Shown here: positions 1-14,160 of the stretch, one piece after another
Layout: each line of letters starts with the position of its first letter
Position numbering within the stretch: the first letter of the stretch is position 1
From: an uncultured Ruminococcus sp.
GTDB lineage: Bacteria > Bacillota > Clostridia > Oscillospirales > CAG-272
NCBI GenBank assembly: GCA_902778145.1
Contig: CACYWW010000037.1
Coordinates: forward strand, 1-33,337
Reading direction: 5' to 3'
Length of the DNA: 33,337 nt
Made by a program: the position numbers and the translations under genes
The notes under the pieces: model-generated
The model's database searches: none
What the model was told of the DNA's origin: nothing
Seen by the model: the letters and a program-made list of their open reading frames with translations, nothing else

Positions 1-15
1 AAGCCTCACGGCTTC

Positions 16-199
16 AGCTAAATTAAATTCGCCTGCAAGCTCGGCGAAGCCGAATTCAGCTCGCGGAGCGAATTTAGCTATGCGAAGCATAATTTAGCTG
101 GGCGAAGCCCAATTTAGCTCGCCGCAAGGCGAATTTAGCTTGCGGAGCGAATTTAGCCGGGCGAAGCCCAATTTAGCTCGCCGCAAGGCGAATTTAGCT
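16..199. repeat. Array of short palindromes joined by AATTTAGCT linkers (copy 1)
   Basis: Eight short palindromic units are separated by the 9-base linker AATTTAGCT or a one-base variant, giving a period of about 20-21 bases. The units are CGGCGAAGCCG (42-52), CGCGGAGCG (62-70), ATGCGAAGCAT (80-90), GGGCGAAGCCC (100-110), CGCCGCAAGGCG (120-131), TGCGGAGCG (141-149), GGGCGAAGCCC (159-169) and CGCCGCAAGGCG (179-190). The stems covary around a GAA, GGA or GCAA loop. The left end carries the inverted linker AGCTAAATT (16-24), so the array is bounded by inverted repeats. It ends one base before the rubrerythrin stop codon. The small hairpin AAGCC-TCAC-GGCTT at 1-14 may be a further unit, and the array may continue beyond the window edge. 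A second copy lies at 12883-13003. Confidence 0.93.
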
Positions 200-200
200 T

Positions 201-791
201 TCAGTTGTCAGGAAGTTCGGGCTTGACGTATCCCCGGACGGAGCCGCAGAGAGGGCAGACGGCGGGCGCCTCACAGCTTTCCTGCTCGTGCCCGCATCTT
301 GAGCATTTCCACTTGACCGGCGTCCCTCTTTTGTAGAGAGTGCCGTCGGTCAGCTGCTGCTTGATATTGTTGAGCTGCATCATGTGGCAGTGCTCGACCG
401 CGGCGACGAGCCCGAAAAGATCGGCGATCTCTGCAAATCCCTCGTCGCGCGCCTCTTTTTCATACTCCGCGTAGATCCTCACGCTTTCGTTGTATTCGAT
501 GTCCGCGGCAGATGACAGATCGGCCGTCAGCTCGCCCTTCTCCGTGAACGGATATCCCGCGTCGACCCTGAGATCCGGACAACCCTCCGGGCAAGCCTTC
601 ATTATCTCCCCGTAAAATCTCTTTGCGTGATACTGCTCGTTTTTGGCGATCTCGTCTATCGCGCATCCGATCTCATAAAGCCGGGCGTTGTCCGCCGTCT
701 CCTTCATCATCGCGTATCTTGCGTGATCCTGACATTCTCCGGCGTACGAATTGATCAGGTTTTTGTACGTTTTTGACTGTTTGAGTTCCAC
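201..791 (-). CDS. rbr: Rubrerythrin (non-haem diiron peroxidase)
   Basis: This 196-residue protein has the two-part rubrerythrin layout. An N-terminal ferritin-like four-helix diiron domain (about residues 1-150) carries the ExxH pairs E52/H55 and E133/H136 and an early ligand at E19. A C-terminal rubredoxin-like domain has C163, C166, C179 and C182 in two CxxC knuckles. The family reduces hydrogen peroxide in the cytoplasm of anaerobes, taking electrons from NAD(P)H through rubredoxin-type partners. The start is GTG at 789-791; upstream there is only a weak GGAAAA site, so the start is not firm. The gene stands alone, with its own promoter and the palindrome array immediately after its stop codon. 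Family assignment is secure. Confidence 0.95.
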   Translation of the reverse strand: MELKQSKTYKNLINSYAGECQDHARYAMMKETADNARLYEIGCAIDEIAKNEQYHAKRFYGEIMKACPEGCPDLRVDAGYPFTEKGELTADLSSAADIEYNESVRIYAEYEKEARDEGFAEIADLFGLVAAVEHCHMMQLNNIKQQLTDGTLYKRGTPVKWKCSRCGHEQESCEAPAVCPLCGSVRGYVKPELPDN

Positions 792-817
792 TTTTCCGTA
801 CCGTCCTTTCTTTTTTT

Positions 818-845
818 ATATTATTGCCGCAAAAACGGCGGTCAA
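818..845 (-). promoter_or_regulatory. Probable sigma-A promoter of the rubrerythrin gene
   Basis: On the minus strand TTGACC (840-845) is followed after 16 bases by TAATAT (818-823). The spacer holds a small inverted repeat, GCCG/CGGC around a run of T, which could be a regulator site or chance. The transcript would begin some 20 bases upstream of the GTG start codon. This is assigned by consensus only. Confidence 0.5.
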
Positions 846-926
846 AACAAATAAAAAAAGTACGCAAAAATAAATAAATTCAACCGCCGTTAACATCGGC
901 ATAACAATAAAGCTCCACTTGTAGAT

Positions 927-932
927 TATAAT
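927..932 (+). promoter_or_regulatory. Candidate -10 box upstream of holB
   Basis: A perfect TATAAT lies at 927-932 with no good -35 hexamer 16-18 bases upstream. If used, transcription would begin near 938-940. That would leave the ATG at 946 almost without a leader and favours the TTG start at 964, which has its own GAGG site. Confidence 0.35.
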
Positions 933-963
933 ATATTGATTTATTATGCGAGGTCTCTGTGCT

Positions 964-1968
964 TTGAAACGTTATAAACTCGATATCATCGGCTCCGGAC
1001 GGACAGTACAATACCTGATATCCGCGCTTGAGGGCGGATATCTGTCGCACGCCTATATTTTCGAGGGCGCGGACGGATCCGGCAGGCACACACTCGTCAA
1101 AGAGCTTCTGAAGGCCATGGCGTGTGAGAACGAAGACGCGCCGTGCGGCGTCTGCGGACCGTGTATGAAGATAGACGCGGGAGTCTGCGTGGACGTCCGG
1201 TATATAAGACCCGCGGAGGGGAAGACCGAGCTCACGGTCGATCTGATCAGATCGATATACGACACGGTCGGCATGAGCCCGTCCGAGCTCGATTTCAAAG
1301 CTTACGTTATAGAAAACGGCGAGAAGATGAATCCGAGCGCGCAGAACGCGTTCCTCAAGCTGCTTGAGGAGCCGCCCGGAGACGTCAGATTCTTCATCAT
1401 CACAAACGACGCGTCGAAGCTTCTGCCGACCGTCAGGTCCCGGGCTCTGATACTGAGGCTCGACAAGCTCGATAAAAAGCAGATGGAGCTTGTCCTCGAC
1501 CGCAATAACATAAGCGACAGCGTGAAGCGCAGGAAAGCGATAGCGCTGGCGGACGGCAGCGCCGGAGAGGCGATGAGGATCATCAGGGACGAGGCAAGCT
1601 CCGCAAAATACAGACAGGCGGCGGACGCCATGTCGGACATCCTGTTCCTGCCCGGCGGAAGCAAGCTCGCACTTATATCATGTGTTCAGAAAAACTGTAA
1701 AAAAACGGACGAGCTGTACAGCGCGGCGTCGCTCTTTCAGAGGGCTTTGCGCGATATAGCGGCGACCCGGCTCAACACGGGCGCCGGGATGATCTATTTC
1801 GGCAGCCCGGAGGACGCGGAGAAATACGCGATGAACGTTTCGGACAAGGCGTGCCTCGCCTGCCAGGACGTGACGGCGGAGCTTCTTTCGCAATCGGACG
1901 TGCCGCTCAATCCGCAGCTCGCCGCGACCGAATTCTGCTCCCGTTTATGGGACGCGCATCTTCTCTGA
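964..1968 (+). CDS. holB: DNA polymerase III delta-prime subunit
   Basis: This is the clamp-loader delta-prime subunit, 334 residues from the TTG start, of normal family length. The N-terminal AAA+ module has the SHAYIFEG strand and a degenerate P-loop, GADGSGRHT, in which Arg replaces the usual Lys, as expected for a subunit that does not hydrolyse ATP. A zinc-binding cluster follows (C-x6-C-x2-C-x2-C, about residues 54-67). The sensor region reads NAFLKLLEEPP, and the arginine-finger motif is SRA rather than the classic SRC. I prefer TTG at 964 because GAGG (950-953) is correctly spaced and the N-terminus then starts just before the conserved DIIG; ATG at 946 is in frame but lacks a ribosome site. 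It is the first gene of a long co-directional run and is followed by ricT, as in Bacillus. Confidence 0.9.
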   Translation: MKRYKLDIIGSGRTVQYLISALEGGYLSHAYIFEGADGSGRHTLVKELLKAMACENEDAPCGVCGPCMKIDAGVCVDVRYIRPAEGKTELTVDLIRSIYDTVGMSPSELDFKAYVIENGEKMNPSAQNAFLKLLEEPPGDVRFFIITNDASKLLPTVRSRALILRLDKLDKKQMELVLDRNNISDSVKRRKAIALADGSAGEAMRIIRDEASSAKYRQAADAMSDILFLPGGSKLALISCVQKNCKKTDELYSAASLFQRALRDIAATRLNTGAGMIYFGSPEDAEKYAMNVSDKACLACQDVTAELLSQSDVPLNPQLAATEFCSRLWDAHLL

Positions 1969-2007
1969 GACGCGCATAATCAGGCCTATAGGCGTTTGAA
2001 CTTCATA

Positions 2008-2064
2008 CGGAGGCGGTGACGTATGATTTATGAAACGCGGACGAAAAGTCCATCACCGCGGTGA
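2008..2064 (+). other. Possible 13-codon leader ORF and hairpin ahead of ricT
   Basis: In the 112-base gap between holB and ricT, CGGAGG (2008-2013) lies nine bases upstream of an ATG (2023) opening a 13-codon frame that ends in TGA at 2062-2064. GCGGTGA (2013-2019) can pair with TCACCGC (2053-2059). The same GCGGTGA recurs at 2058-2064, forming a 12-base palindrome next to the ricT ribosome site (GAAAGGA, 2063-2069). A translated leader could therefore affect ricT translation. This is a short frame and may be chance. Confidence 0.25.
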
Positions 2065-2080
2065 AAGGAAATAAAAAAAA

Positions 2081-3094
2081 GTGAACGACAGAAGACGTAA
2101 AAGACATACCCCGTTTATCCAGCGACAGGCGGTAGCCGCGGCTGAAACGGCGCCGGTAAAGAGACCGGCGTCGGAATATGAGGCGCCGCGCTTCATGCTT
2201 CCGGAAAGCTATCTCATCAAGCCCGAAGAAATGGAGGCGCCGGCCCGCGTCCGCATATGCGGCGTCCGTTTCAAGGACGGCGGGAAGGTGTACTTCTTCG
2301 ATCCGGACGGGCTGGAGATAAAGGCGGGGCAGAGCGTTATAGTCGAGACGGCGCGCGGGCTCGAATACGGCACCGCCGCGTACGACAACAAGGAAGTCTC
2401 GTCGGTCGAGATAATCACCCCTCTCAAAAAGGTGATCAGACTCGCGACGAACGAGGACGCGATCCACAAGAAGGACAACGACGCGAAGGAAAAGGAAGCG
2501 TTCCGCGTCTGTGAGGAGATGATCGCTCAGCACGGGCTTGAAATGAAGCTCGTCGAGGTCGAATGCACGTTCGATAATTCGAAGCTTTTGTTCTACTTCA
2601 CGTCGGAGTCGCGCGTCGACTTCCGCGACCTCGTGAAGGACCTCGCATCCGTTTTCAGAACGAGGATAGAGCTACGCCAGATCGGTATACGCGACGAGGC
2701 GAAGATGATCGGCGGACTCGGCGTCTGCGGAAGGCCTGTGTGCTGTCACACGTTCCTTGAGGATTTCGGACAGGTCTCGATAAAAATGGCAAAGGAGCAG
2801 AACCTTTCGCTCAATACCTCAAAGATCTCCGGAACGTGCGGAAGGCTCATGTGCTGTCTGCGCTACGAGCACGAGACGTACGAGGATGAGATCAGCAAGA
2901 CGCCGAAGGTCGACTCACTCGTGCGTACCGGGGACGGAGACGGCGTCGTCGTGGAGACCATGCCGCTGAGAGGTCTTGTGAAAGTACAGCTTTCGCAGAA
3001 CCCCGACGCCGCGCCGAAGGTCTACCAGCGCGATGACGTGAAGCTGATCGGATACGTCAAGAAGGAAGCAAGATCGCAGCCGAAACAACAATAA
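2081..3094 (+). CDS. ricT: RicT (YaaT), PSP1-domain Fe-S regulator of mRNA maturation
   Basis: This 337-residue protein contains the PSP1 C-terminal domain of the YaaT/RicT family. Six cysteines in the family's paired CxxxxCC pattern are visible at C216/C221/C222 and C253/C258/C259. In Bacillus, RicT with RicA (YmcA) and RicF (YlbF) forms an Fe-S complex that assists RNase Y in processing mRNAs and is needed for sporulation, competence and biofilm formation. The family is known from that work; the activity here is inferred. The N-terminal 45 residues are poorly conserved and basic. The start is GTG at 2081, with GAAAGGA (2063-2069) 11 bases upstream. The position just after holB matches the Bacillus order holB-yaaT. 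No ricA or ricF is in the window. Confidence 0.92.
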   Translation: MNDRRRKRHTPFIQRQAVAAAETAPVKRPASEYEAPRFMLPESYLIKPEEMEAPARVRICGVRFKDGGKVYFFDPDGLEIKAGQSVIVETARGLEYGTAAYDNKEVSSVEIITPLKKVIRLATNEDAIHKKDNDAKEKEAFRVCEEMIAQHGLEMKLVEVECTFDNSKLLFYFTSESRVDFRDLVKDLASVFRTRIELRQIGIRDEAKMIGGLGVCGRPVCCHTFLEDFGQVSIKMAKEQNLSLNTSKISGTCGRLMCCLRYEHETYEDEISKTPKVDSLVRTGDGDGVVVETMPLRGLVKVQLSQNPDAAPKVYQRDDVKLIGYVKKEARSQPKQQ

Positions 3095-3113
3095 ACGAAA
3101 GTGAGACGGTAAA

Positions 3114-3773
3114 ATGGCGGAGGGACACAGACAGAGACTCAAAAGCAGATTCCTGCAGAGCGGGCTCGACGGGTTCAATGAGATAAACACACTTGAGCTT
3201 TTGCTGTTTTATACCCTTCCGAGGCAGGATACGAATCCTACGGCTCACAAGCTTCTCGACAGGTTCGGAAGCTTTTCCGCGGTCCTTGACGCCGATTATG
3301 ACGAGCTCGTCAAGGTGGACGGTATATCCGAGCATACGGCGACGTTCCTGAAGCTCTTGCCGGAGGCGGCGAGATACTATCAGAGCAGCAAGCTGACGGA
3401 AAAGCTTCAGTTCGCCACGCTCGCGGACATAGGCGATTATCTTGTGAGAAAGTACGTCGGGATCCTGACGGAGACTGTCTTCATGCTCATGCTCGACAAC
3501 AAGCACTGCCTGCTCGGGTGCGAGAAGATACATGAAGGCTCCGTAAGCTCCGCCGCGGTCAGCATCAGGAGGATAGCGGAGACCGCGCTGAGAAAACGTG
3601 CCGCCGCGGTCGTCATAGCTCACAACCATCCGTCGGGTCTCGCTCTGCCGTCGCCCGACGATCTGAGGATCACAAGGACCTTCAAGGACGCCCTGAGCAC
3701 TCTTGAGATCGAATTCGTGGATCATTTCATAATAGCCGATAACAAATACTGCACCATCATGAACAAACTGTAA
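3114..3773 (+). CDS. radC: RadC-family JAMM/MPN+ protein
   Basis: This full-length RadC-type protein has 219 residues. A helix-hairpin-helix-like N-terminal part (about residues 40-80) precedes an MPN+/JAMM metalloprotease-like domain. The metal site shows E141, H170, H172 and D183 (HNHPSG followed by PSPDD). Although named for DNA repair, the family's biochemical role is unsettled, and the metal-site residues suggest a hydrolase. The gene begins 19 bases after ricT. Its stop codon overlaps the uvrB start by one base (TAATG), so the two are probably translationally coupled. Family membership is certain and function is not. Confidence 0.93.
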
Positions 3774-5749
3774 TGAACGACAGATTCAAATTAGTATCTG
3801 ATTACAAACCTACGGGAGACCAGCCGCGCGCCATATCCGAGCTCACCGAGGGCGTGCTCCGCGGAGACCGGATGCAGACGCTGCTCGGCGTCACCGGATC
3901 GGGCAAGACGTTCACGATGGCGAATATAATCGCCAATCTCAACCGTCCGACGCTCGTTCTGGCTCACAATAAAACGCTCGCCGCGCAGCTTTGCCTTGAA
4001 TTCCGTGAGTTTTTCCCGGAAAACGCGGTCGGTTATTTCGTATCCTATTACGATTACTATCAGCCGGAGGCGTATATCCCCGGCAAGGATCTTTACATAG
4101 AAAAGGACTCGCTCATAAACGATGAGATAGACAAGCTGCGCCACAGCGCGACGTCGTCTCTGTTCGAGCGGCGCGACGTTATAATCGTCTCGTCCGTCTC
4201 GTGCATATATTCGCTCGGCGACCCGGAGGAATACAGCGGGCTGATGGTCGCCATACGGCCGGGAATGCAGATAGACAGGAACGAATTCCTGCGCCGTCTC
4301 GTCGCCGTGAACTATGAACGCAACGATATCGATTTCGTCCGTGACAAGTTTCGCGTCCGCGGCGACACGGTCGAGGTCTTCCCGGCAAGCGAGGGAGAAA
4401 ACGCCCTGAGGGTCGAATTCTTCGGCGACGAGATAGACCGCATTTCCGAGATAAACGCGCTTACCGGCGCGGTGATCAGGCGCCTTTCGTACGCCGCGAT
4501 ATACCCGGCGAGCCACTACGCCGTATCGGACGACAAACGTCTTGCCGCGCTTGAACAGATACGCGACGAGATGGAGGAGAGAGTGGAGTTTTTCGAGGCG
4601 CAGGGAAAGCTCGTCGAAGCCCAGCGCATCAGGACGAGGACGGAATACGATCTCGAGATGATATCGGAGGTCGGCTACTGCTCCGGCGTTGAGAACTACT
4701 CGCGCGTGTTTTCCGGCAGGGCGCCGGGGTCCACGCCGTTCTGTCTGCTCGACTATTTTCCGAAGGATTACCTGCTTTTCGTAGACGAATCGCACGCGAC
4801 GCTGCCGCAGGTCCGCGGTATGAGCGCGGGTGACAGGGCGAGAAAGCAGAACCTCGTCGATTACGGCTTCCGCCTGCCGTCGGCGTTCGACAACAGACCG
4901 CTCGTTTTCGAAGAATTCGAGCAGAAGATAAACCAGGCGATATTCGTCTCGGCGACCCCGGGAGATTATGAAAAAGAGCATTCGGCGTCCATATCCGAAC
5001 AGCTCATACGGCCGACCGGACTCACCGACCCGGAGATCGAGATAAGACCGGTCGAAGGTCAGGTCGACGATCTGCTCGGCGAGATAAGGCAGCGGATCGA
5101 ACGCGGCGAACGCGTACTCGTCACTACGCTGACAACGAAAATGGCCGAGGATCTGACGGAATATATCCAAAGCCACGGGATCAAGGTACAGTATATCCAC
5201 CACGAGGTCGAGACGATGCAGAGGACCGAGATCCTCCGCGACCTGCGTCTCGGCGTTTACGACGTGCTCGTCGGCATCAACCTGCTGAGAGAGGGGCTCG
5301 ATCTGCCCGAGGTATCGCTCGTCGCGATACTTGACGCGGATAAGGAAGGACTTCTGAGGTCCGAGGTCTCGCTCATACAGACGATCGGACGCGCCGCGAG
5401 ACACGAGAGGGGCAAGGTCATAATGTACGCCGACACCGTGACGGGGTCGATGAAACGCGCGATCGACGAGACCGAGCGCAGACGTACTATACAGAAGAAA
5501 TACAACGAAGAGCACGGTATCACACCGCATACCGTCGTAAAGGCGGTGCGCGACGTTATCGAGATCGCCGAACGCGATACAGACAACAAGAAGAAGAGAA
5601 GGAGCCGCACGGTCGACAAGCCCGCGTCCGAGGAGGATCGCGGAAAACTCATAAACGAGCTGACCGCGAAGATGCGGCTCGCCGCAAAGGAGCTCCGCTT
5701 CGAGGAGGCGGCGGCTTACCGTGACAGGATAAGAGAACTGACAAAATGA
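3773..5749 (+). CDS. uvrB: UvrABC excinuclease subunit B
   Basis: UvrB of 658 residues, the normal length. It receives damaged DNA from UvrA, opens the helix and recruits UvrC in nucleotide excision repair. The Walker A motif GVTGSGKT is at residues 39-46. The beta-hairpin region begins with [12 protein letters not shown], helicase motif II is DESH, motif VI lies in [12 protein letters not shown], and the C-terminal UVR domain (about 620-655) ends in RIRELTK. Every expected motif is present. It overlaps radC by one base and rsmI by four bases (ATGA). Neither uvrA nor uvrC is in the window. Confidence 0.98.
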
Positions 5750-6627
5750 AAAACCTGAGCCCGAACGAATGGGAAAACAATGAACAGACAGAGCGAAACA
5801 GGGTCGAGCCTTCGACGCTTTATCTCGTCGCCACGCCGATCGGCAATCTCTCCGACATAACGTACAGAGCGGTCAAGGTCTTATCCGAGGTCGATTTCAT
5901 CGCCGCCGAGGATACGCGCAACACGCCGAAGCTCCTGTCGCGTTATGAAATAAAAAAACCGCTCGTCAGCTACTATGAGCACAATAAGCGCGAGCGCGGG
6001 GAGTATATAGCGTCAAGACTCGAGGCGGGGGAATCCTGCGCGCTCGTCACCGACGCGGGTACCCCGGCGATAAGCGACCCCGGCGAGGATCTCGTCGTCT
6101 TATGCCGTGAAAGAAATATAAAAGTCGTGAGCATACCCGGCGCCTGCGCCGCGATAACGGCACTGACTCTTTCCGGACTTCCGACAAGACGCTTCTGCTT
6201 CGAGGGCTTTCTCACGACGGTGAGAGGGCAGAGAAAACAGAGACTGCGCGAGCTTTCACGGGAGACGAGAACGCTCGTTATATACGAGGCGCCTCACAAG
6301 CTGAAGCTCACGCTCGAGGATCTTTACGAGGCTTTCGGCGACAGGCGCGTCGCGTTATGCCGCGAGCTGACCAAGCTGAACGAGGAGGCGAGGCTCATGA
6401 CGCTGTCGGAGGCCGTCGCTTACTATTCCGAAAACCAGCCGAGAGGCGAATTCGTTCTTGTGATCGAGGGCGCGGAGGAGGAGGCGCCCGTCGGCGCCGA
6501 TCTTCCGGTCGCCGAACACGTTCAGAAATACATAGACGCCGGAATGACGAAAATGGACGCCATAAAAGCCGCCGCGCGCGACAGGGGCGTCCCGAAATCC
6601 GAAGTATACGCGGAGATAAACAAATGA
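5746..6627 (+). CDS. rsmI: 16S rRNA (cytidine-1402-2'-O)-methyltransferase RsmI
   Basis: This 293-residue tetrapyrrole-methylase-fold enzyme uses SAM to 2'-O-methylate C1402 of 16S rRNA. Diagnostic motifs are [13 protein letters not shown] near the N-terminus, AAEDTRNT, the SAM-loop [11 protein letters not shown] and the central [12 protein letters not shown] small C-terminal helical domain follows (about 245-293). The ATG at 5746 overlaps the uvrB stop by four bases. Compared with relatives it carries about 20 extra polar residues before the first strand, and no better in-frame start is visible. RsmI genes lie near holB and yaaT in Bacillus too. It overlaps nagA by four bases. Confidence 0.96.
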
Positions 6628-7742
6628 GGATATATAACGCAAAAGTTTTTGACACGGAAAAAGTCTCTTTCTTCGACGGCGCCGTATCGTTTGACGGCGC
6701 GGTTATAACGGAGGTATCCGGAAACGACGGAAAGGGCGATATCGACGCGCACGGCGCGTACCTTATCCCGGGACTCATAGACGTGCACAGCCACGGACGC
6801 GGCGGCGTCGATTTCATGAACGCGTCGCCTGATGAGATAGAAAAAAGCCTGAAGCTTTATCTTAAGCACGGCGTGACGACCGTGTTCCCCTGCGTAATGA
6901 CGGCGCCGTACGACGATATCGTCAGGGCGATAGACAACATAAAGTCAACAAAAAGCGATATAAACATAGACGGCATCCACGTTGAGGGGCCGTACATTTC
7001 TCCGAAGCGCCCGGGATGCCACAATATCTCACAGCTCCGCCCGCTTTACTGCGACGAGGCGATGAAGCTCACCCGTCACATAGCTCCGCTCAAAGCGCAT
7101 TTTACCGTGGCGCCGGAGCTTGAGGGCGCGGAAATGTTCATAAAAACGCTCCTGAAATACGGCGCGACCGCCGGTATCGGTCACTCCGACGCGAAATACG
7201 CGGAGGCGACGAAGGCGCTCGGACTCGGCTGCGTGTCGTTCACGCATACGTTCAACGCCATGAGAGAGCTGAAGCACAGGGAGCCCGGAACCGTCGGCGC
7301 CGCGCTTTCCGGAAAAGCGTATGCCGAATTCATATGCGACCTCTTCCACGTCTCGGCGCCCGTGCTGGATATTTCATACCGTGCGCTCGGACGCGACAGA
7401 TTCGTGATCGTCTCCGATTCCATAGCCGCCGCCGATATGCCGGACGGCGAGTATTTCCTCTCCGGGATGCGTGTGAACGTCAGGGACGGCAGGGCGACAA
7501 ACGACGACGGAGCGATCGCCGGCTCCACTACGAACGTGTTCGACGAACTCAAAAATCTTCACAAAACGACAAACGCGCCGTTCGGCGACGTCGTCCTCGC
7601 GGCGACGGCGAATCCGGCGAAGCAGGTCGGTATATTCGGCGTGACCGGATCGATAGAGACCGGAAAACGCGCGGATCTTATTCTGACGGACGGTGAGAAC
7701 GTCATCCTGACCGTAAGCCGCGGAAAACCGATATCCGCCTGA
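6624..7742 (+). CDS. nagA: N-acetylglucosamine-6-phosphate deacetylase
   Basis: NagA of 372 residues removes acetate from GlcNAc-6-phosphate to give glucosamine-6-phosphate, in amino-sugar catabolism or cell-wall recycling. The amidohydrolase fold is clear: HSH (H55, H57) in GLIDVHSHGRGG, metal ligand E121 in HVEGPYISPKRPG, H187 in GHSDA, H208 in THTFNAM, H242, and the catalytic Asp D265 in IVSDS. The correct start is ATG 6624, overlapping the rsmI stop by four bases (ATGA) and following CGGAGA (6611-6616). A longer in-frame reading upstream only re-reads rsmI. NagA sits oddly among housekeeping genes. A possible downstream deaminase is the SIS protein at 26066. Confidence 0.96.
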   Translation: MRIYNAKVFDTEKVSFFDGAVSFDGAVITEVSGNDGKGDIDAHGAYLIPGLIDVHSHGRGGVDFMNASPDEIEKSLKLYLKHGVTTVFPCVMTAPYDDIVRAIDNIKSTKSDINIDGIHVEGPYISPKRPGCHNISQLRPLYCDEAMKLTRHIAPLKAHFTVAPELEGAEMFIKTLLKYGATAGIGHSDAKYAEATKALGLGCVSFTHTFNAMRELKHREPGTVGAALSGKAYAEFICDLFHVSAPVLDISYRALGRDRFVIVSDSIAAADMPDGEYFLSGMRVNVRDGRATNDDGAIAGSTTNVFDELKNLHKTTNAPFGDVVLAATANPAKQVGIFGVTGSIETGKRADLILTDGENVILTVSRGKPISA

Positions 7743-7790
7743 AATAAACCGGAAAAACCGTCAATAATACAAAAAAAACGGAGGAAATAA

Positions 7791-8663
7791 ATGACAGAAG
7801 GCGACGTCCGCGTAACGACGCCCGTGCGTGATACGGGCAAAAGAAAACTGAATTCTCACTTCAGATCGGAAGCGCGCCGCACGCTTTTCGCGGGGGACAA
7901 CTATTACAGATCTGTTTTGTCACACCTGATCTGCGGACTGTTTTCCGGCGGTGCGCTCTACCTTTCCTTCTACGCGCCGGACCTTATAAAGACCGTGTTC
8001 GGCGGATCTCTCGGCGAGGAGAGCACGGCGCTTCTTTCGGCCTCGGTCAACACCGTTCTGTATCTCGTATCGGCGTTTCTGTTCTTCGCTTTTTTCTCCG
8101 GTGTTTATCTCCTCGCCTCGGCAATGAAGGATGAACCGGATACGGCGGAGGGCGATCCGGATCCCGCGGATCTCTCGATGATGCTGAGACCGGTCGGATC
8201 ACACAGGAGCCTCAGCCGGACCGCCGGCGTGTTCATTATCCTTGCGGCGGAGCTCGCGCTCGCGGTGATACCCGCGGTATATGTGATAAGCCGCGTCTCA
8301 GGCACCGGGATCGACCCGCGTGCGGCGGCTGCCGTAAAGATCGTTTCCGTCATCGCGGCGTCGCTTTTATCGCTGTTTTTCATTATCCTTCTTGTTCCTA
8401 TGCCGTACGCCCTTGAGGCTGAACCGGATGCCGGCGTGCTCGAGCTTTACCGGAAAAGCGCGAAAGCCGCGGTCCGCGGAGCCTTCAGATGCGTACTCAT
8501 GTTATTATCGTTCATCCCTCACCTGATCCTTTCCGTACTGAGCTTCGGTGTGATGTTCTTTGCGTACACTCTGCCGTATATGACGCTCAGCATGGCAAAG
8601 CTCGGGGAGTATCTATACAATATCACATACTTTGAAAGGAAAAAAACCGATGAACAAGCCTAA
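7791..8663 (+). CDS. Polytopic membrane protein of unknown function
   Basis: I do not recognise this 290-residue protein. A basic, soluble N-terminus (about 1-40) precedes hydrophobic segments near residues 41-63, 87-110, 144-167, 180-205 and 232-263, so about five or six membrane passes are expected. An acidic cytoplasmic or external loop lies at 112-127, and the short charged tail ends KKTDEQA. There is no lipobox, no cleavable signal and no obvious catalytic motif. The ribosome site is a strong CGGAGG just upstream of the ATG. The last 14 bases overlap the metG start, so the gene belongs to the housekeeping operon. Its job there is unknown. Confidence 0.75.
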   Translation: MTEGDVRVTTPVRDTGKRKLNSHFRSEARRTLFAGDNYYRSVLSHLICGLFSGGALYLSFYAPDLIKTVFGGSLGEESTALLSASVNTVLYLVSAFLFFAFFSGVYLLASAMKDEPDTAEGDPDPADLSMMLRPVGSHRSLSRTAGVFIILAAELALAVIPAVYVISRVSGTGIDPRAAAAVKIVSVIAASLLSLFFIILLVPMPYALEAEPDAGVLELYRKSAKAAVRGAFRCVLMLLSFIPHLILSVLSFGVMFFAYTLPYMTLSMAKLGEYLYNITYFERKKTDEQA

Positions 8664-10581
8664 ATACTATATCACGACGGCGATACCGTACGCCTCGAGA
8701 AAGCCGCATATCGGCAATACCTACGACATAATCCTGGCGGACTGCTATAAAAGATACAAGCAACTCTGCGGTTACGACGCGTATCTGAGCACGGGGACCG
8801 ACGAACACGGTCAGAAGATCGAGGAATACGCCGCCGAAAACAACATGTCGCCGAAGGAATACGCGGATATGGTCTCGGGTCAGGTCAGACAGATCTGGGA
8901 CGACGTCGGCGCACAGTACGACGTTTTCATAAAGACGACGGACAAGCATCACGAAAAGGCCGCCGCAAATCTGTTCGATAAATTCCTGAAGCAGGGCGAT
9001 ATATACAAGAGCGAGTACGAGGGCTGGTACTGCGTCCCCGATGAGACGTTCCTCACCGACACACAGGTTGTCGACGGAAAGTGCCCCGAATGCGGACGTC
9101 CCGTCATACGCGCAAAGGAAGAGGCGTACTATTTCAGGATGAGCAAATACGCCGACGCGCTGCTCAGATATTACGAGGAAAATCCGGATTTCATAATCCC
9201 CGAGTCCCGTAAGAAAGAGATGATCAACAACTTTATCAAGCCCGGACTGCAGGATCTCTGCGTCACCAGAAGCTCGTTCAAATGGGGCATCCCCGTCAAA
9301 AACGACCCGAAGCACGTGCTCTACGTCTGGATGGACGCGCTTATAAACTACATAACCGCGCTCGGTTATGATCCCGAAAACGAAAAACAACCCGAGGCGT
9401 TCACGAAATACTGGCCCGCGGACGTCCATTTCATCGGAAAGGATATCCTCAGGTTCCACAGCATCTACTGGCCGATATTCCTGATGGCGGCGGGACTTCC
9501 CCTGCCGAAAAAGATATTCGCGCATCCGTGGCTGCTCTCCGGCGTCGATAAGATGTCGAAATCACGCGGCAACGTCATATACGCGGACGATCTCATAAAG
9601 ATATTCGGGCGCGACGGCTGCCGTTACTATTCGCTTGCCGAGATGCCGTTCTCATCCGACGGTACGATAACGTACGAAAACGTGATAAGCCGCTATAATT
9701 CCGATCTTGCGAATATCCTGGGCAACCTCGTGAAGCGTACCGAATCGATGACCGTCAAATACTTTGACGGCGTGATCCCGGCGCCCGGCGAGGAGACGGA
9801 GCTTGACCGCGATCTCAAGGAGACCGTCACGGGAGCCGTCGTGAAATATAAGGATCTCATGGAGAAATTCATGATATCTGACGCGCTGGACGCCGTTTTC
9901 ACCGCGCTCCGCCGCGCAAATAAATATATAGATGAGACGACCCCGTGGATCCTCGCAAAGACCGACGAGGGAAAAATCCGCCTCGCGACCGTTATGTATA
10001 ACCTTCTTGAAACGATACGCGTCTGCGCCGTGCTTCTGAAGCCGGCGATCCCCGACGCCGCTGAAAAGATCCTGTCCGCGCTCAACGAAAAGGGAGACGA
10101 TATCACCCGTGTCGAGACTTTCGGCGGGCTTGTCCCCGGCGGCAGGGTGACCGAGGGCGAAGCGCTCTTCTCACGCGTGGACGAGGCGAAGGTCATGGAA
10201 CAGGTAAACGCGGGCAAGGAAGAGGAAAAGAAGCCCGAAAAACCGGAGGGTGAGCCGGAGATAGAGTTCGACAGCTTCGTAAAGGTAGAGATGCGCACCG
10301 CCGAGATCCTTGAATGCGAGCCCGTGCCGAAGTCAAAGAAGCTTCTGAAGCTGAAGCTCGATCTCGGTTATGAGCAGAGACAGGTCCTCTCCGGCATCGC
10401 TCAGTATTACACCCCCGCCGACCTTATCGGCAAAAAGGTGATAGTCGTCGCAAACCTCAAGCCGAGGATGATGATGGGTTACGAATCGAAGGGCATGGTC
10501 CTCGCTTCGAGCGGAGAGGGCGACACGGTACGCGTCGTATTCCTTTCCCCGGATACGCCTAACGGACAGAGAATAAGCTGA
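8650..10581 (+). CDS. metG: Methionyl-tRNA synthetase with C-terminal tRNA-binding domain
   Basis: This 643-residue class I synthetase charges tRNA-Met. The HIGH-type motif is HIGN at residue 20, and KMSKS is at 301-305. The inserted zinc domain has C128, C145 and C148, with Asp131 where a fourth Cys often sits. An anticodon-binding helical region follows, then a charged Glu/Lys/Pro linker (about 517-535), then an EMAPII/Trbp111-like tRNA-binding domain from about 537 to the end. The ATG at 8650 has GAAAGGA nine bases upstream; an upstream in-frame TTG at 8632 would use that ribosome site as coding sequence, so I reject it. Its stop overlaps the tatD start (TGATG). Confidence 0.98.
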   Translation: MNKPKYYITTAIPYASRKPHIGNTYDIILADCYKRYKQLCGYDAYLSTGTDEHGQKIEEYAAENNMSPKEYADMVSGQVRQIWDDVGAQYDVFIKTTDKHHEKAAANLFDKFLKQGDIYKSEYEGWYCVPDETFLTDTQVVDGKCPECGRPVIRAKEEAYYFRMSKYADALLRYYEENPDFIIPESRKKEMINNFIKPGLQDLCVTRSSFKWGIPVKNDPKHVLYVWMDALINYITALGYDPENEKQPEAFTKYWPADVHFIGKDILRFHSIYWPIFLMAAGLPLPKKIFAHPWLLSGVDKMSKSRGNVIYADDLIKIFGRDGCRYYSLAEMPFSSDGTITYENVISRYNSDLANILGNLVKRTESMTVKYFDGVIPAPGEETELDRDLKETVTGAVVKYKDLMEKFMISDALDAVFTALRRANKYIDETTPWILAKTDEGKIRLATVMYNLLETIRVCAVLLKPAIPDAAEKILSALNEKGDDITRVETFGGLVPGGRVTEGEALFSRVDEAKVMEQVNAGKEEEKKPEKPEGEPEIEFDSFVKVEMRTAEILECEPVPKSKKLLKLKLDLGYEQRQVLSGIAQYYTPADLIGKKVIVVANLKPRMMMGYESKGMVLASSGEGDTVRVVFLSPDTPNGQRIS

Positions 10582-11345
10582 TGATATTCGATACTCACGC
10601 GCATTACGACGACGAGAAGTTCGACTGTGACCGTTATGACGTCATAGACGGACTTTTCGAAAACGGTGTTTCGGGGATTCTCAACTGTGCGACCTGCGTT
10701 GAGAATTTCGACGCCACGCTCGAGCTTTCGGAAAAATACGAAAGGGTGTACGCCGCGCTCGGTGTGCACCCCTCCGATTGTTACAGGTATAAGTCGCTTG
10801 AAGACGTCATGGACTTGCTTGCCGGCGATATAGAGAAAAACGACGTCAGGGCACTCGGTGAGATCGGGCTCGATTATCACTACGACTTTTCGCCGAAGGA
10901 CAAACAGCTTTTATACTTCGACGCTCAGCTTGAACTCGCGGAAAAGCTCGGGCTTCCCGCCGTCATACACGACAGGGAGGCGCACGGGGACGTTTTTGAG
11001 CGCCTGCGCCGTTTCAAAGGCACCGCGATCATCCACAGCTGCTCCGAGAGCGCGGAGACCGTGCGTCAGCTCTGCAGGAAGGGGCATTTCGTCTCGTTTT
11101 CCGGCTCCGTCACGTTCAAAAACGCAAGCTCTGTCAGGGAAGCGGCAAGGGCGGTGCCCGACGAGCTTCTCCTCGTCGAGACGGATTCGCCTTACATGGC
11201 GCCGGTCCCCGTCCGCGGGACCCGCAACGACAGCGGGAATATCCGCCATATACTGAAGGTCCTCGGAGAAGTCCGCGGCGCGGATCCCGGATATATCGAA
11301 ACGATCACACAAGATAACGCGATGAGGCTTTTCAAAGTCGTATGA
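10581..11345 (+). CDS. tatD: TatD-family metal-dependent nuclease
   Basis: TatD-type TIM-barrel hydrolase of 254 residues. The signature metal ligands are present: H6 and H8 in FDTHAHYDD, Glu in GEIGLDYH, His in VIHDRE, His in IIHSCSES, and Asp in VETDSPYMAP. The NDSGNI motif near the C-terminus is a variant of the usual family signature. Members are cytoplasmic DNases linked to DNA repair or clean-up; substrate here is inferred. The metG-tatD pairing is common in Bacillota. Its ATG overlaps the metG stop by one base. The 3' end overlaps the convergent aminotransferase gene by 14 bases. Confidence 0.95.
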   Translation: MIFDTHAHYDDEKFDCDRYDVIDGLFENGVSGILNCATCVENFDATLELSEKYERVYAALGVHPSDCYRYKSLEDVMDLLAGDIEKNDVRALGEIGLDYHYDFSPKDKQLLYFDAQLELAEKLGLPAVIHDREAHGDVFERLRRFKGTAIIHSCSESAETVRQLCRKGHFVSFSGSVTFKNASSVREAARAVPDELLLVETDSPYMAPVPVRGTRNDSGNIRHILKVLGEVRGADPGYIETITQDNAMRLFKVV

Positions 11346-12456
11346 CGTCTTTTATGACGTCACAGAAATATTCCGCCTCTTCCTCCGTGTTGAAGACCGA
11401 AAAGCTTATCCTTACCGCACCGGATCCGTCCGGTGCGGTATATTTATGCGCTCCCGGCGCACAGTGCATACCGGCGCGGGCGCAGATCCCGCGGCTGTCA
11501 AGCAGCGCGGCTGTCTCTTCGGGAGCCTTTCCGTCTATGTTGAAGCACAGCAGCGGACCGTATGAAGGACGGTAGAAGGTCACGCCGGAAACGCCCGAAA
11601 GAGAATCGAGTATCGCGGCGGAGATGCTCTCCTCATGAGCTCTTATCGCTGCGATCCCGGTCGATCTGACGAAATCGATGCCGGCGGAAAGCGCCGCGAT
11701 CGGCAGAAGCGGCAGAGTCCCCGCTTCAAATCTTTCCGGAAGCCGGTCCGGCATGTATGCCGTATACGGATCCGCGCCGGAGCCGCCGACGGTGAGAGGC
11801 GGATGCGATCTCACGTCATATCCCTCCGAAAACACCGTTATCCCGCACCCGGTCACACCGTACAGCCCCTTATGTGCCGGTGCGCAGAGGATATCGATGT
11901 TGTCGGTATCGACGTTTATATCGTATATCCCCGCCGCCTGCGCCGCGTCGACGATGAACACGGCGCCGTGCTCCCGGCAAAGAGCGCCGATCCGTCTGAT
12001 CGGCAAAACGGTCGGGAAGACGTTTGAAGCCCACGCGCACACAACGGCGGAAACGCCCAATAAAAGCCCCGCGCGGACCTGTTCGAGTATCGTTTCCTCA
12101 TCCGACAGCGAGTCAAAATACGAGATATCCGCCCCGGCTCTTATAAGCGGTCTTATCACGGAATTGTGCTCGGTCGTGCCGGTCATGACCTTCATCCCGT
12201 ATCTCACGGCGCCAGATATCGCCGCGTTGAGAGACTCCGTGCATCCGCCTGTGAAACAGACGAGGTGCGGTCCCTTCGCTCCGAAAAGCTCCGCTGCCTT
12301 CACCCTTGCGCGGTAGACGGTCTCCGCCGCCCTCATCGCCGCCGCGTGTCCGCCCCTGCCGGGATTGCCGTAAGGCTCACGGAAAAGACGCTTCACGGCT
12401 CCCTCCACGGCGCGCGGCTTCGGCCAGCTCGTGGCGGCGTTGTCAAAATAGATCAA
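11332..12456 (-). CDS. Class-V aminotransferase / cysteine desulfurase-like protein (EF2568 type)
   Basis: This 374-residue PLP enzyme has the fold of cysteine desulfurases and selenocysteine lyases. The N-terminus YFDNAATSWPKP is typical. H97 (TEHNS) stacks on PLP, K196 in APAHKG is the Schiff-base lysine, and C332 in RAGMHCAPG is the persulfide-forming cysteine. It most resembles the sub-family found beside DUF3343 proteins, thought to handle sulfur or selenium; that role is family inference. The start appears to be TTG (12454-12456), overlapping the DUF3343 stop by four bases, so translation is probably coupled. No iscU or sufU scaffold, selD or xdh gene is visible nearby. The gene converges on tatD. 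Confidence 0.9.
   Translation of the reverse strand: MIYFDNAATSWPKPRAVEGAVKRLFREPYGNPGRGGHAAAMRAAETVYRARVKAAELFGAKGPHLVCFTGGCTESLNAAISGAVRYGMKVMTGTTEHNSVIRPLIRAGADISYFDSLSDEETILEQVRAGLLLGVSAVVCAWASNVFPTVLPIRRIGALCREHGAVFIVDAAQAAGIYDINVDTDNIDILCAPAHKGLYGVTGCGITVFSEGYDVRSHPPLTVGGSGADPYTAYMPDRLPERFEAGTLPLLPIAALSAGIDFVRSTGIAAIRAHEESISAAILDSLSGVSGVTFYRPSYGPLLCFNIDGKAPEETAALLDSRGICARAGMHCAPGAHKYTAPDGSGAVRISFSVFNTEEEAEYFCDVIKDVIRL
11413..11440 (+). terminator. Perfect hairpin inside the convergent gene, possible terminator for the metG-tatD operon
   Basis: TACCGCACCGG (11413-11423) and CCGGTGCGGTA (11430-11440) form an 11-base-pair stem with a six-base loop, followed on the plus strand by TATTTATG. 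It starts 67 bases after the tatD stop, inside the coding sequence of the opposing aminotransferase, where it encodes the APDGSG stretch. The tract after the stem is only partly T-rich, so termination is inferred. Confidence 0.45.
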
Positions 12457-12665
12457 GGCTCGGTGAACGGTATCCCCGCGTTTCTCAATGCCTTCGCCGC
12501 GTCGCGTGCGTCTCTTTGATCGACGCTGACGCCGAACCTGCAGCCCTTCCGTGTCTCGCTGCCGTCAAGCCTTATCACATTCGATTTTATACCCGTATAT
12601 GAAAGCACGTCTCTCGCCTTATACGCGTAGGTCAGAGAAGACGTTGCAAAAAGATCTTTTTTCAT
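12453..12665 (-). CDS. DUF3343 protein, putative Se/S carrier-like
   Basis: This 70-residue protein begins MKKDLFATSS and resembles DUF3343 proteins, small putative sulfur or selenium carriers usually encoded next to a class-V aminotransferase. The motif SSLTYAYKARDVLSYTG and a central single cysteine (KGCRFGV) are visible; the cysteine is a candidate carrier residue. The ATG at 12663-12665 follows AAGGGTGAT, a reasonable ribosome site; the longer frame upstream runs into a hairpin region and is not supported. It overlaps the downstream aminotransferase by four bases. The function is a family-level proposal. Confidence 0.78.
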   Translation of the reverse strand: MKKDLFATSSLTYAYKARDVLSYTGIKSNVIRLDGSETRKGCRFGVSVDQRDARDAAKALRNAGIPFTEP

Positions 12666-12704
12666 TCTGATCACCCTTGAAGGATTGCGGTCTCCCGCAC
12701 CATC

Positions 12705-12734
12705 ATTATATGAACGGTAACGGACGGGCGACAA
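12705..12734 (-). promoter_or_regulatory. Probable promoter for the DUF3343-desulfurase pair
   Basis: On the minus strand TTGTCG (12729-12734) is followed after 18 bases by a perfect TATAAT (12705-12710). The transcript would start about 35 bases before the DUF3343 ATG. This matches the gap left by the upstream hairpin at 12770-12831. Confidence 0.55.
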
Positions 12735-12769
12735 AACAAAAAAAGGGCACAGGGAGAGGCTACGTAAAG

Positions 12770-12831
12770 AAGAAAATAACCCACTTTGACATCTTTCAAT
12801 CAGAGAAAGTGTCATAGTGGGTTATTTTCTT
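12770..12831. terminator. Long near-perfect hairpin, likely bidirectional terminator
   Basis: The two arms (12772-12797 and 12805-12829) are complementary over about 25 bases with one mismatch and one bulge. The outer part is GAAAATAACCCACT/AGTGGGTTATTTTC and the inner part CTTTC/GAAAG. Both outer edges are A/T-rich, so each strand ends in a T-rich run. It lies downstream of the minus-strand ylbJ and 67-residue genes and upstream of the DUF3343 promoter, a sensible place for a terminator. A very small inverted-repeat element is an alternative, but I see no target-site duplication. Confidence 0.6.
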
Positions 12832-12882
12832 TCAGCTTCAGCTTGTTCTAACCGCTTTGATATTAAGAATGATTATGAAAAC

Positions 12883-13003
12883 AGCTAAATTGCTCGCAGT
12901 CGCTCGCAGCTAAATTAAATTCGCCTATAAGCTCGGCGAAGCCGAATTTAGCTTGCGAAGCAAATTTAGCTGGGCGAAGCCCAATTTAGCTCGCCGCAAG
13001 GCG
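12883..13003. repeat. Array of short palindromes joined by AATTTAGCT linkers (copy 2)
   Basis: Second copy of the element at 16-199, in the same orientation. Inverted linkers AGCTAAATT occur at 12883-12891 and 12908-12916. Units CGGCGAAGCCG (12934-12944), TGCGAAGCA (12954-12962), GGGCGAAGCCC (12972-12982) and CGCCGCAAGGCG (12992-13003) are separated by AATTTAGCT. From 12907 to 12947 it matches 15-55 except for two bases (GC versus AT). The right end runs into the coding sequence of the 67-residue protein, and the last linker supplies that gene's TAA stop. Together with the hairpin at 12770-12831 it fills the roughly 320-base gap between the flanking genes. Confidence 0.92.
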
Positions 13004-13189
13004 AAGCATTTCGCCGTGCTCCGGCTTTTTCGGTATCCGGGGAACACGTTTCAGCGGGTCGTATATGAATTTTGAACATTTGTGACCGCTGCCGACTACC
13101 CCGCGCAGCTCGCACAGCATACGCTCCGGATCGTAACCCGGCGCCGCGTGTTCGCAGTAAAGACAGATCTTTTCATATTCCGCTTCCAT
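12986..13189 (-). CDS. Small cysteine-containing protein (67 aa), unknown function
   Basis: I do not recognise a named family. Four cysteines (C9, C12, C26, C38), the first two as CLYC, suggest a small zinc-binding or redox knuckle. The middle is rich in Gly, Lys and Pro, and the protein ends GEMLRLAAS. The ATG at 13187-13189 has AAAGGGG seven bases upstream. It lies 53 bases after ylbJ and may be co-transcribed. The last residues and the stop codon are encoded by the palindrome array, so the C-terminal tail probably arose by array insertion or expansion. The longer frame reaching back over ylbJ is an overlap artefact. Confidence 0.65.
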   Translation of the reverse strand: MEAEYEKICLYCEHAAPGYDPERMLCELRGVVGSGHKCSKFIYDPLKRVPRIPKKPEHGEMLRLAAS

Positions 13190-13242
13190 GATATGACCCC
13201 TTTGATTTGTTTGATATATTCTACCACCGTTTGGCGGAAAAG

Positions 13243-14160
13243 TCAAGAGAAAAAGATTGGATAAAGCAGGTAAACCGCGAAAAATGACGCCGCGGCCTGA
13301 AAGATCTTGCCCGTGACGTAATATCGCATCCGTATCCCGCACTCCGATACGGCAGCCGATACCTGTGACGCGACCGAAAGCCCCGAAAACGACACAAGCG
13401 AGCAGACGAGCGAGGCTGACAGCCGCGGATCGGAAACGGCGGACGCGAGGATGGCGGTGCCGGACGTTATCTCCGGTATCGCCGATAGGAACCCGCCGAG
13501 CGGAAGCGCGGACAGCGCCTTTGAAATCACGCGGAAAACTATGACGTTCGCGCATATGACGACGGCGCCGGACGCCCCCGCCGAGACCGATCGCGGGAGA
13601 GAGACGCGGTGCGGCGAGCCTTCTTTCACACAGACCGGGGATCCGGCTTTTTTTCTTATGATCAGCCCGAAGAGCACGGCGGAAAAGATCATGGAGAGAC
13701 AGCATAACACGCCGGCCCGCGCCGATCCGAGAAGTGACCCGACGTAAACCGCGGCGAAAGCCGGCGTCGCGTTGTTCGTATATGATATAAGCACCTCCGC
13801 TTCCGACCGTCCGATCCTTCCGGCGGAGCAAAGCTCCGACACCGCGTACGCGCCGGACGGATAGCCGCCGAAAAGCCCGAGTACGAAGATCCCGGCGCCG
13901 GTCTCCGATATCCCGAAAAGGCGTGACAACGGTCTGCCTGCGACTCGACCGACAGTCTCGCAGAACCCGGAGCAGACGAGGAGATCCGAGGCGACGGAGA
14001 AGGGCAGGACGGTCGTGAGTATCACGTCGCGGCAGATGATAAGCGCCTCCGCCGCCGCCTCCCGCGCCTCCGCCGCGAACACGACGAGCCACACCGCGAA
14101 CAGCAGCGCGAACAGTCCGTAAAAGACGCTGCCCGCGTTTTTAAGCCCTGTTTTTTCCAT
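13243..14160 (-). CDS. ylbJ: YlbJ-like sporulation integral membrane protein
   Basis: This 305-residue, strongly hydrophobic protein has the Gate/nucleoside-recognition architecture of YlbJ. Many membrane segments are visible, with the conserved FGGYPSGAYAVSEL region near residue 115, an SYTNNATPAF stretch and an NVIVFRVI helix. YlbJ is a sporulation membrane protein in Bacillus, made under sigma-E; the transported substrate is unknown. The ATG at 14158-14160 has a strong GGAGG six bases upstream. It is divergent from yqfC, another sporulation gene, across a 77-base gap, so the two may share regulation. Membership is likely; exact orthology is not tested. Confidence 0.85.
   Translation of the reverse strand: MEKTGLKNAGSVFYGLFALLFAVWLVVFAAEAREAAAEALIICRDVILTTVLPFSVASDLLVCSGFCETVGRVAGRPLSRLFGISETGAGIFVLGLFGGYPSGAYAVSELCSAGRIGRSEAEVLISYTNNATPAFAAVYVGSLLGSARAGVLCCLSMIFSAVLFGLIIRKKAGSPVCVKEGSPHRVSLPRSVSAGASGAVVICANVIVFRVISKALSALPLGGFLSAIPEITSGTAILASAVSDPRLSASLVCSLVSFSGLSVASQVSAAVSECGIRMRYYVTGKIFQAAASFFAVYLLYPIFFS

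Follow-up and report, generated by a model that had tools for sequence, protein, structure and literature searches.

The array of mini-hairpins at the start of contig CACYWW010000037.1 (uncultured Ruminococcus sp.) probably forms the structured non-coding portion of a small mobile element belonging to the S23/intervening sequence (IVS) kind, linked copies of which lie inside host terminator loops in the window's genus. As we read the sequences, a hairpin-studded element of this kind outside rRNA would be new relative to the known rRNA IVSs.

In the window (the whole stretch of DNA analysed, 33,337 nt), eight mini-hairpins (42–52, 62–70, 80–90, 100–110, 120–131, 141–149, 159–169 and 179–190) alternate with AATTYAGCT linkers near the contig start, confirming the array with a fixed linker that had been described from the sequence and placing it at 42–198. 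AATTYAGC occurs eight times between 53 and 198, the first of them having C (AATTCAGC, 53–60), and in the hairpin at 141–149 (TGCGGAGCG) the outer pair is mismatched. The window contains 15 AATTYAGC where 1.93 are expected, and none of 100 shuffles reached 15, far in excess of chance. The feature does not, however, begin at position 16, as originally proposed: the contig starts inside the element, positions 1–15 are a hairpin of the opposite arm, and the array is one arm of something longer. Contig C57 begins with the same bases as the 1–15 hairpin, indicating that the assembly broke at the window start, and the element is the likely cause of several contig breaks in this assembly, because the start or end of this contig and of others falls within a copy. 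The sense of the element is taken as the minus strand, after the S23-carrying copies (orientation from locus L222). The first copy and its neighbouring gene are laid out as follows:

1–15, minus strand: right-arm hairpin AAGCCTCACGGCTTC, the complete form of which is found in L032 and L036
16–24, minus strand: inverted linker AGCTAAATT of the right arm, read from the sequence
25–52, minus strand: element centre between the inverted arms, including the first hairpin (CGGCGAAGCCG, 42–52); other copies have the same centre
53–199, minus strand: left arm, with eight AATTYAGCT linkers and seven mini-hairpins (62–70 to 179–190), from linker and unit positions
201–791, minus strand: rubrerythrin gene (PF02915, gene annotation), its stop codon abutting the array

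No terminator halves are visible around this copy, which abuts the rubrerythrin stop codon and may therefore be truncated or rearranged; situated at the 3′ end of the rubrerythrin gene, it may be either gene-free or truncated. Searching window positions 1–13500 against Rfam at gathering scores gave no match, and no exact copy of one unit pair from the array was found in viral contigs. A second copy is located at approximately 12751–13006 of the window:

12738–12748, no strand assigned: half of a host terminator (AAAAAAAGGGC) next to this copy, with GTGCCCTTTTTTT as the right-end flank; the matching half was not seen on the other side
12751–12836, minus strand: right end with the AATAACCCACT hairpin, from comparison with other copies
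12837–12882, minus strand: spacer, in the position of the S23 gene in contig C23, from comparison with that contig
12883–12916, minus strand: right arm, with two linkers and one hairpin, from linker positions
12917–12944, minus strand: centre, read from the sequence
12945–13006, minus strand: left arm with three linkers, without the left-end hairpin, from linker positions

Both copies adjoin the ends of protein genes and do not lie within rRNA, and neither has a PF05635 gene in or beside it. The second copy provides the last codons and, from a linker, the stop codon of a short minus-strand ORF (12986–13190).

Across the window's genome (G000), 73 linker-hairpin-linker units were identified at 22 places (by clustering of pattern matches) and none with the reversed control pattern, so that the repeat is dispersed well beyond the two copies in the window. 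Copies share one layout, which opens with an outer left hairpin (GCGGTGTACTTCG..). Next come the left arm, in which AGCTAAATT linkers alternate with hairpins, the centre, and the right arm, built likewise but with AATTTAGCT linkers; a spacer then leads to the right end, marked by the AATAACCCACT hairpin. Full copies have two inverted arms and fixed ends, each end bearing a hairpin in the window's genus, and either the spacer or a PF05635 gene plus further ORFs; the left and right ends differ and do not look like terminal inverted repeats. Many copies are cut by contig ends, L033 and L049 are without the left hairpin, and C12, C16 and C28 contain few units only, with the AATTCAGC variant. In L327, long arrays with a variant linker (AGCTAAATA) lie next to AATTTAGCT units. 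Pattern matches were found in 24 of 196 family genomes, 11 of them with at least four units. The remaining 13 have one unit or two, and some may match by chance; one further genome (G077) matched the reversed control only. The genomes with at least four units span several genera, with a constant linker and different hairpin stems. Among the matches listed from a scan of named genomes, many were from gut and rumen Clostridia, with scattered single hits elsewhere.

The hairpin form is conserved while the stem sequence is not. Ends that pair perfectly over 3 bp or more are present in 75 of 101 distinct spacers from the chosen loci, compared with a mean of 2.5 and a maximum of 7 over 200 rounds of shuffled spacers, and 44 distinct stems are represented. 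The compensatory stem changes claimed in the original prediction were upheld in part: the stems vary with the hairpin form kept, and paired replacement is seen in the homologous left-end hairpin (GCGGTGTAC..GTACACCGC in 17/18, with two loop versions, and GCGTTGTAC..GTACAACGC in 1/18), with further paired stem variants in L039, L041 and L313, but neighbouring units have unrelated stems, which is not strict covariation. The growth by unit copying proposed at the same time is borne out by an alternating two-unit repeat in L326. CCCC/GGGG-rich repeats with a GAGC..GCTC core, which look like hairpins nested in hairpin loops, are found in array hairpins or beside arrays at L088, L091, L225, L312 and L317.

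Dispersed hairpins with a constant foot, in inverted pairs and often at gene ends, are also typical of REP/BIME/REPIN sequences, and a REP/BIME-like element spread by a RAYT (Y1) transposase had been suggested. This origin is now highly improbable: no Y1_Tnp match was found in G000 (assembly 88% complete) when such an enzyme was sought, six of the 12 array genomes have one (four above cut-off), the stems vary, and the element has defined ends and is linked to S23.

In C23, two ORFs replace the spacer, the first encoding a 23S rRNA-intervening-sequence (S23) protein (PF05635/TIGR02436), with its gene lying between the array and the right end. S23 is a four-helix-bundle protein, and one solved structure (2rld) is related to the C23 S23 at E below 0.01. 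The locus of the C23 gene (L080) is cut by the contig start, with one linker visible, while L222 is a complete 1213-bp copy within terminator arms, again with the S23 gene between array and right end; its genes are S23 and a 148-aa ORF without a Pfam match, and include no recognised transposase. A PF05635 gene is found within or beside the element in C23, L219, L221, L222 and L223. At the genome level, PF05635 is present in 11 of the 12 array genomes (55 matches) and in 0/14 control genomes; the sole array genome without a match (G123) has 16 units. Gene-free copies are many and S23-bearing copies rarer, most copies in the window's genome being without an adjacent S23 gene. Across 13 viewed loci, with 10 proteins scanned, the ORFs that follow S23 vary (histidine phosphatase, GNAT, PQQ-like, transglutaminase-like and HNH, others giving no match) and, judged by position alone, are cargo. 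In L236 (1870–2781), an ORF with homing-endonuclease-associated repeats and an HNH domain lies directly after the S23 gene.

Linked copies in the window's genus are flanked by the two halves of one host intrinsic terminator, with the element inside the loop. For 11 linked copies the mean complement score of the flanks is 12.36, versus 6.86 for mismatched flanks (0/100,000 permutations); both ends were required in one locus, leaving 7 left-only and 8 right-only ends unusable, and L032 is an exception, with no matching terminator halves. The initial test with five linked copies gave 1/120 permutations, after which more copies were added and the end patterns widened. At the L045 site, an uninterrupted terminator is found in the same place in 3 of 11 relatives (G078, G346 and G347), with a stem sequence different from that of the occupied site, and the other relatives fail to align across it. 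The target palindrome of L040 has an unoccupied paralogue approximately 1 kb away, with no evident target duplication (one site only). The site of the family A copy in G123 (L319) corresponds to G000 contig C43 (L340), with a GTTATGA-linker array in terminator-like arms.

In other genera, arrays are often found behind a complete terminator. A same-strand tRNA gene is present no more than 700 nt upstream of the S23 gene in 22/45 family loci, representing 13 amino-acid types, versus 0/155 controls. Terminators abutting arrays have long outer stems ending at AGCTAAATT (median 10.75 in 12 rows versus 2.0 in 55 controls, p 2.7e-5; L223 and L096 in the former are near-duplicates, and two of the top controls represent a single palindrome read on either strand, namely the unoccupied paralogue of the L040 target). 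In L085, L086, L088–L091 and L263, these long outer stems extend into the end of the gene or the CCA of the tRNA, and their limit coincides exactly with the first linker. Copying of host 3′ ends by snap-back, considered as an explanation, gained no support from a gap-free test (1/9 versus 2/29).

Other S23 genes are preceded by arrays of the same design with different linkers, among those listed GTGAAGT, AATGAAG, AATGATG, GATGAAAT and AATTATGA. The most repeated 7-mer reaches at least six copies in 28/47 family S23 loci, the other 19 falling below this mark, and at least five in 36/47, while among 100 control genes these levels are reached by 3 (all beside known arrays) and 9, respectively. 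This control set replaced an earlier one of 463 genes, 42 of which reached six copies; that set was biased, because its loci had been picked for arrays. When each locus was compared with shuffles of its own flanks, the repeat level was reached by at most one of 60 shuffles in 59 of 83 S23 loci (some genes fetched twice; 3/86 dropped for short flanks). The exact-word test misses degenerate heptamers, and 23S and RNase P loci fail it despite plain flanking stems.

Linker groups, defined as loci sharing at least two array words (9 groups, 23/41 rows), fit the S23 tree, and host genus does not. The groups require eight changes on the tree, the fewest possible for nine states, with 15 the lowest of 300 shuffles, while host genus on the same 23 rows requires 11 (shuffled mean 11.9), and 7/9 groups span two or more genera. 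Clade A (L219, L221, L222, L223 and L080; support 98/99) includes five genera. Against a strict match, the labels GTGAATA and ATATCAT are each found in two separate parts of the tree.

This joint grouping of S23 phylogeny and linker words counts against a MITE-like element moved by some transposase targeting terminator palindromes, an element in which S23 and the remaining ORFs would be passengers. Defined ends, numerous gene-free copies and a target preference would all be expected of such an element, but the two ends are dissimilar instead of inverted repeats and L222, the sole complete gene-bearing copy read, has no recognised transposase (the search of array genomes for transposases covered Y1 only), making this origin unlikely. 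A reverse transcriptase was also rejected as the mobility enzyme: PF00078 is present in 6/12 array genomes (five above cut-off) and in 2/8 high-quality ones, and the sole example in G000 is apart from the array. This stand-alone reverse transcriptase (L031, 243–1502), the only one found in G000, is two genes from an array and is taken as a bystander because a hydrolase gene separates it from the L031 array. Avd, the accessory protein of diversity-generating retroelements, has a four-helix-bundle fold related to S23; unlike Avd, the arrays here have no linked reverse transcriptase.

Read in the direction of the linker, the 75 distinct hairpins have 22 GNA, 17 GNNA and 36 other loops, with none of the reverse class; d(GCGNAGC) mini-hairpins are unusually stable. 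Favoured loops make up 75/86 in the left arm and 27/65 in the right (copies not made unique). With the arms inverted, this places the favoured loops of the left and right arms on different strands of the same element, a hint that DNA strands, or RNA from each of the two, are recognised. On RNA folding of 18 chosen elements, between two and eight linkers in each pair with linkers of the opposite arm, and all 18 are more stable than 20 mononucleotide shuffles each (z −5.5 to −11.5). Such stability, together with the array being the S23 leader in many loci and the position of S23 genes behind tRNA terminators, would also suit a cis-acting RNA structure, with leader or 3′-UTR arrays bound by S23 or another protein, controlling RNA stability or S23 expression and spread by recombination, not insertion. 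That most copies in the window's genome are without an adjacent S23 gene, that insertions lie in terminator loops with empty sites elsewhere, and that the polarity of the loops goes with the strand of the linker in each inverted arm, and hence with opposite strands of one element, makes such a role distinctly unlikely as the explanation of these arrays.

For the preferred reading, a mobile element of the S23/IVS kind, we propose that an S23 oligomer would recognise the repeated linkers as a multivalent site. The arms would pair through their linkers in single-stranded DNA or RNA, with the mini-hairpins projecting, presumably as the mobile form, and this folded form may be placed into the loop of another hairpin. 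The host terminator would keep its stem, so that terminator function would survive and the insertion be tolerated, and gene-free copies could move in trans on S23 made elsewhere.

The element shares with 23S rRNA IVSs the S23 family, insertion in the loop of a host RNA hairpin and complementary ends (as seen for the 11 linked genus copies together, L032 excepted), as well as short repeats before the ORF. In the available part of one report, the Coxiella IVS has tandem heptamers before the S23 ORF that vary in number between strains, an earlier proposal that the ORF serves mobility is cited, S23 proteins are said to be without known function and IVS movement is described as unsettled (PMC4990558). 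Differences from 23S rRNA IVSs include the location outside rRNA, in terminators, for which reason the element is not an IVS in the strict sense, the 9-nt linkers spaced by mini-hairpins, the many gene-free copies and the further ORFs after S23. In its manner of working the element resembles an IVS, and it belongs with S23-linked elements, not with REP/RAYT. A limited search of open-licence papers found none joining S23 to terminators or to such arrays.

Beyond the family, PF05635 is present in 29 of 149 genomes sampled from the phylum (26 above cut-off), and many of these S23 genes adjoin short repeats (21/28 loci gave a reading). Six S23 loci, chosen by visual inspection, interrupt genes for structured RNAs: 23S rRNA in four cases, the setting already known for IVSs, and RNase P RNA in two (one genus). 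Degenerate heptamers form a flanking stem that could be measured in five of these loci, the model having missed L291. The RNase P RNA examples (L290 and L292, 1229–2003), each an S23 gene between heptamer stems, come from two different genomes within that genus. S23-like matches were also found in 26 plasmid records, eight of which were viewed: a single 7-mer is repeated 8 to 26 times in seven, but not in the Monoglobus plasmid (L305). The STRRs of cyanobacteria, described in the accessible text of PMC2670836 as 7-bp repeats of unknown function, are likewise short tandem words, and heptamer arrays lie on either side of S23 genes in cyanobacterial plasmids; STRRs are contiguous heptamer tandems, in contrast to the 9-nt linkers spaced by hairpins seen here. 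For heptameric repeats in Xanthomonas and Nostoc, the sections at hand of PMC4692102 do not name S23 and report in general no association with mobile elements. Published STRR sites may stem from S23 elements.

A wider class of S23 elements is strong in pattern and unproven in mechanism. Tentatively, and with appreciable doubt, S23 proteins might constitute, together with repeats specific to each of their clades, one widespread mobile-element class without a recognised transposase or reverse transcriptase. The repeats would be the present linker-hairpin arrays as well as the heptamers found in rRNA IVSs, in RNase P RNA insertions and on plasmids from several phyla. This class would insert into hairpin loops, with terminators and tRNA 3′ ends among the main targets, could carry other genes, and would have left STRRs and many orphan heptamer arrays as its remains. 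Since the arrays here combine an S23 protein with a repeated linker that matches it, a target for insertion and unoccupied sites, S23 function becomes directly testable. The association of S23 with repeats could explain heptamer repeats that have been reported without explanation, terminators and RNase P RNA are added to rRNA as insertion hosts, and the element may connect several long-standing puzzles over short repeats and interrupted RNA genes.
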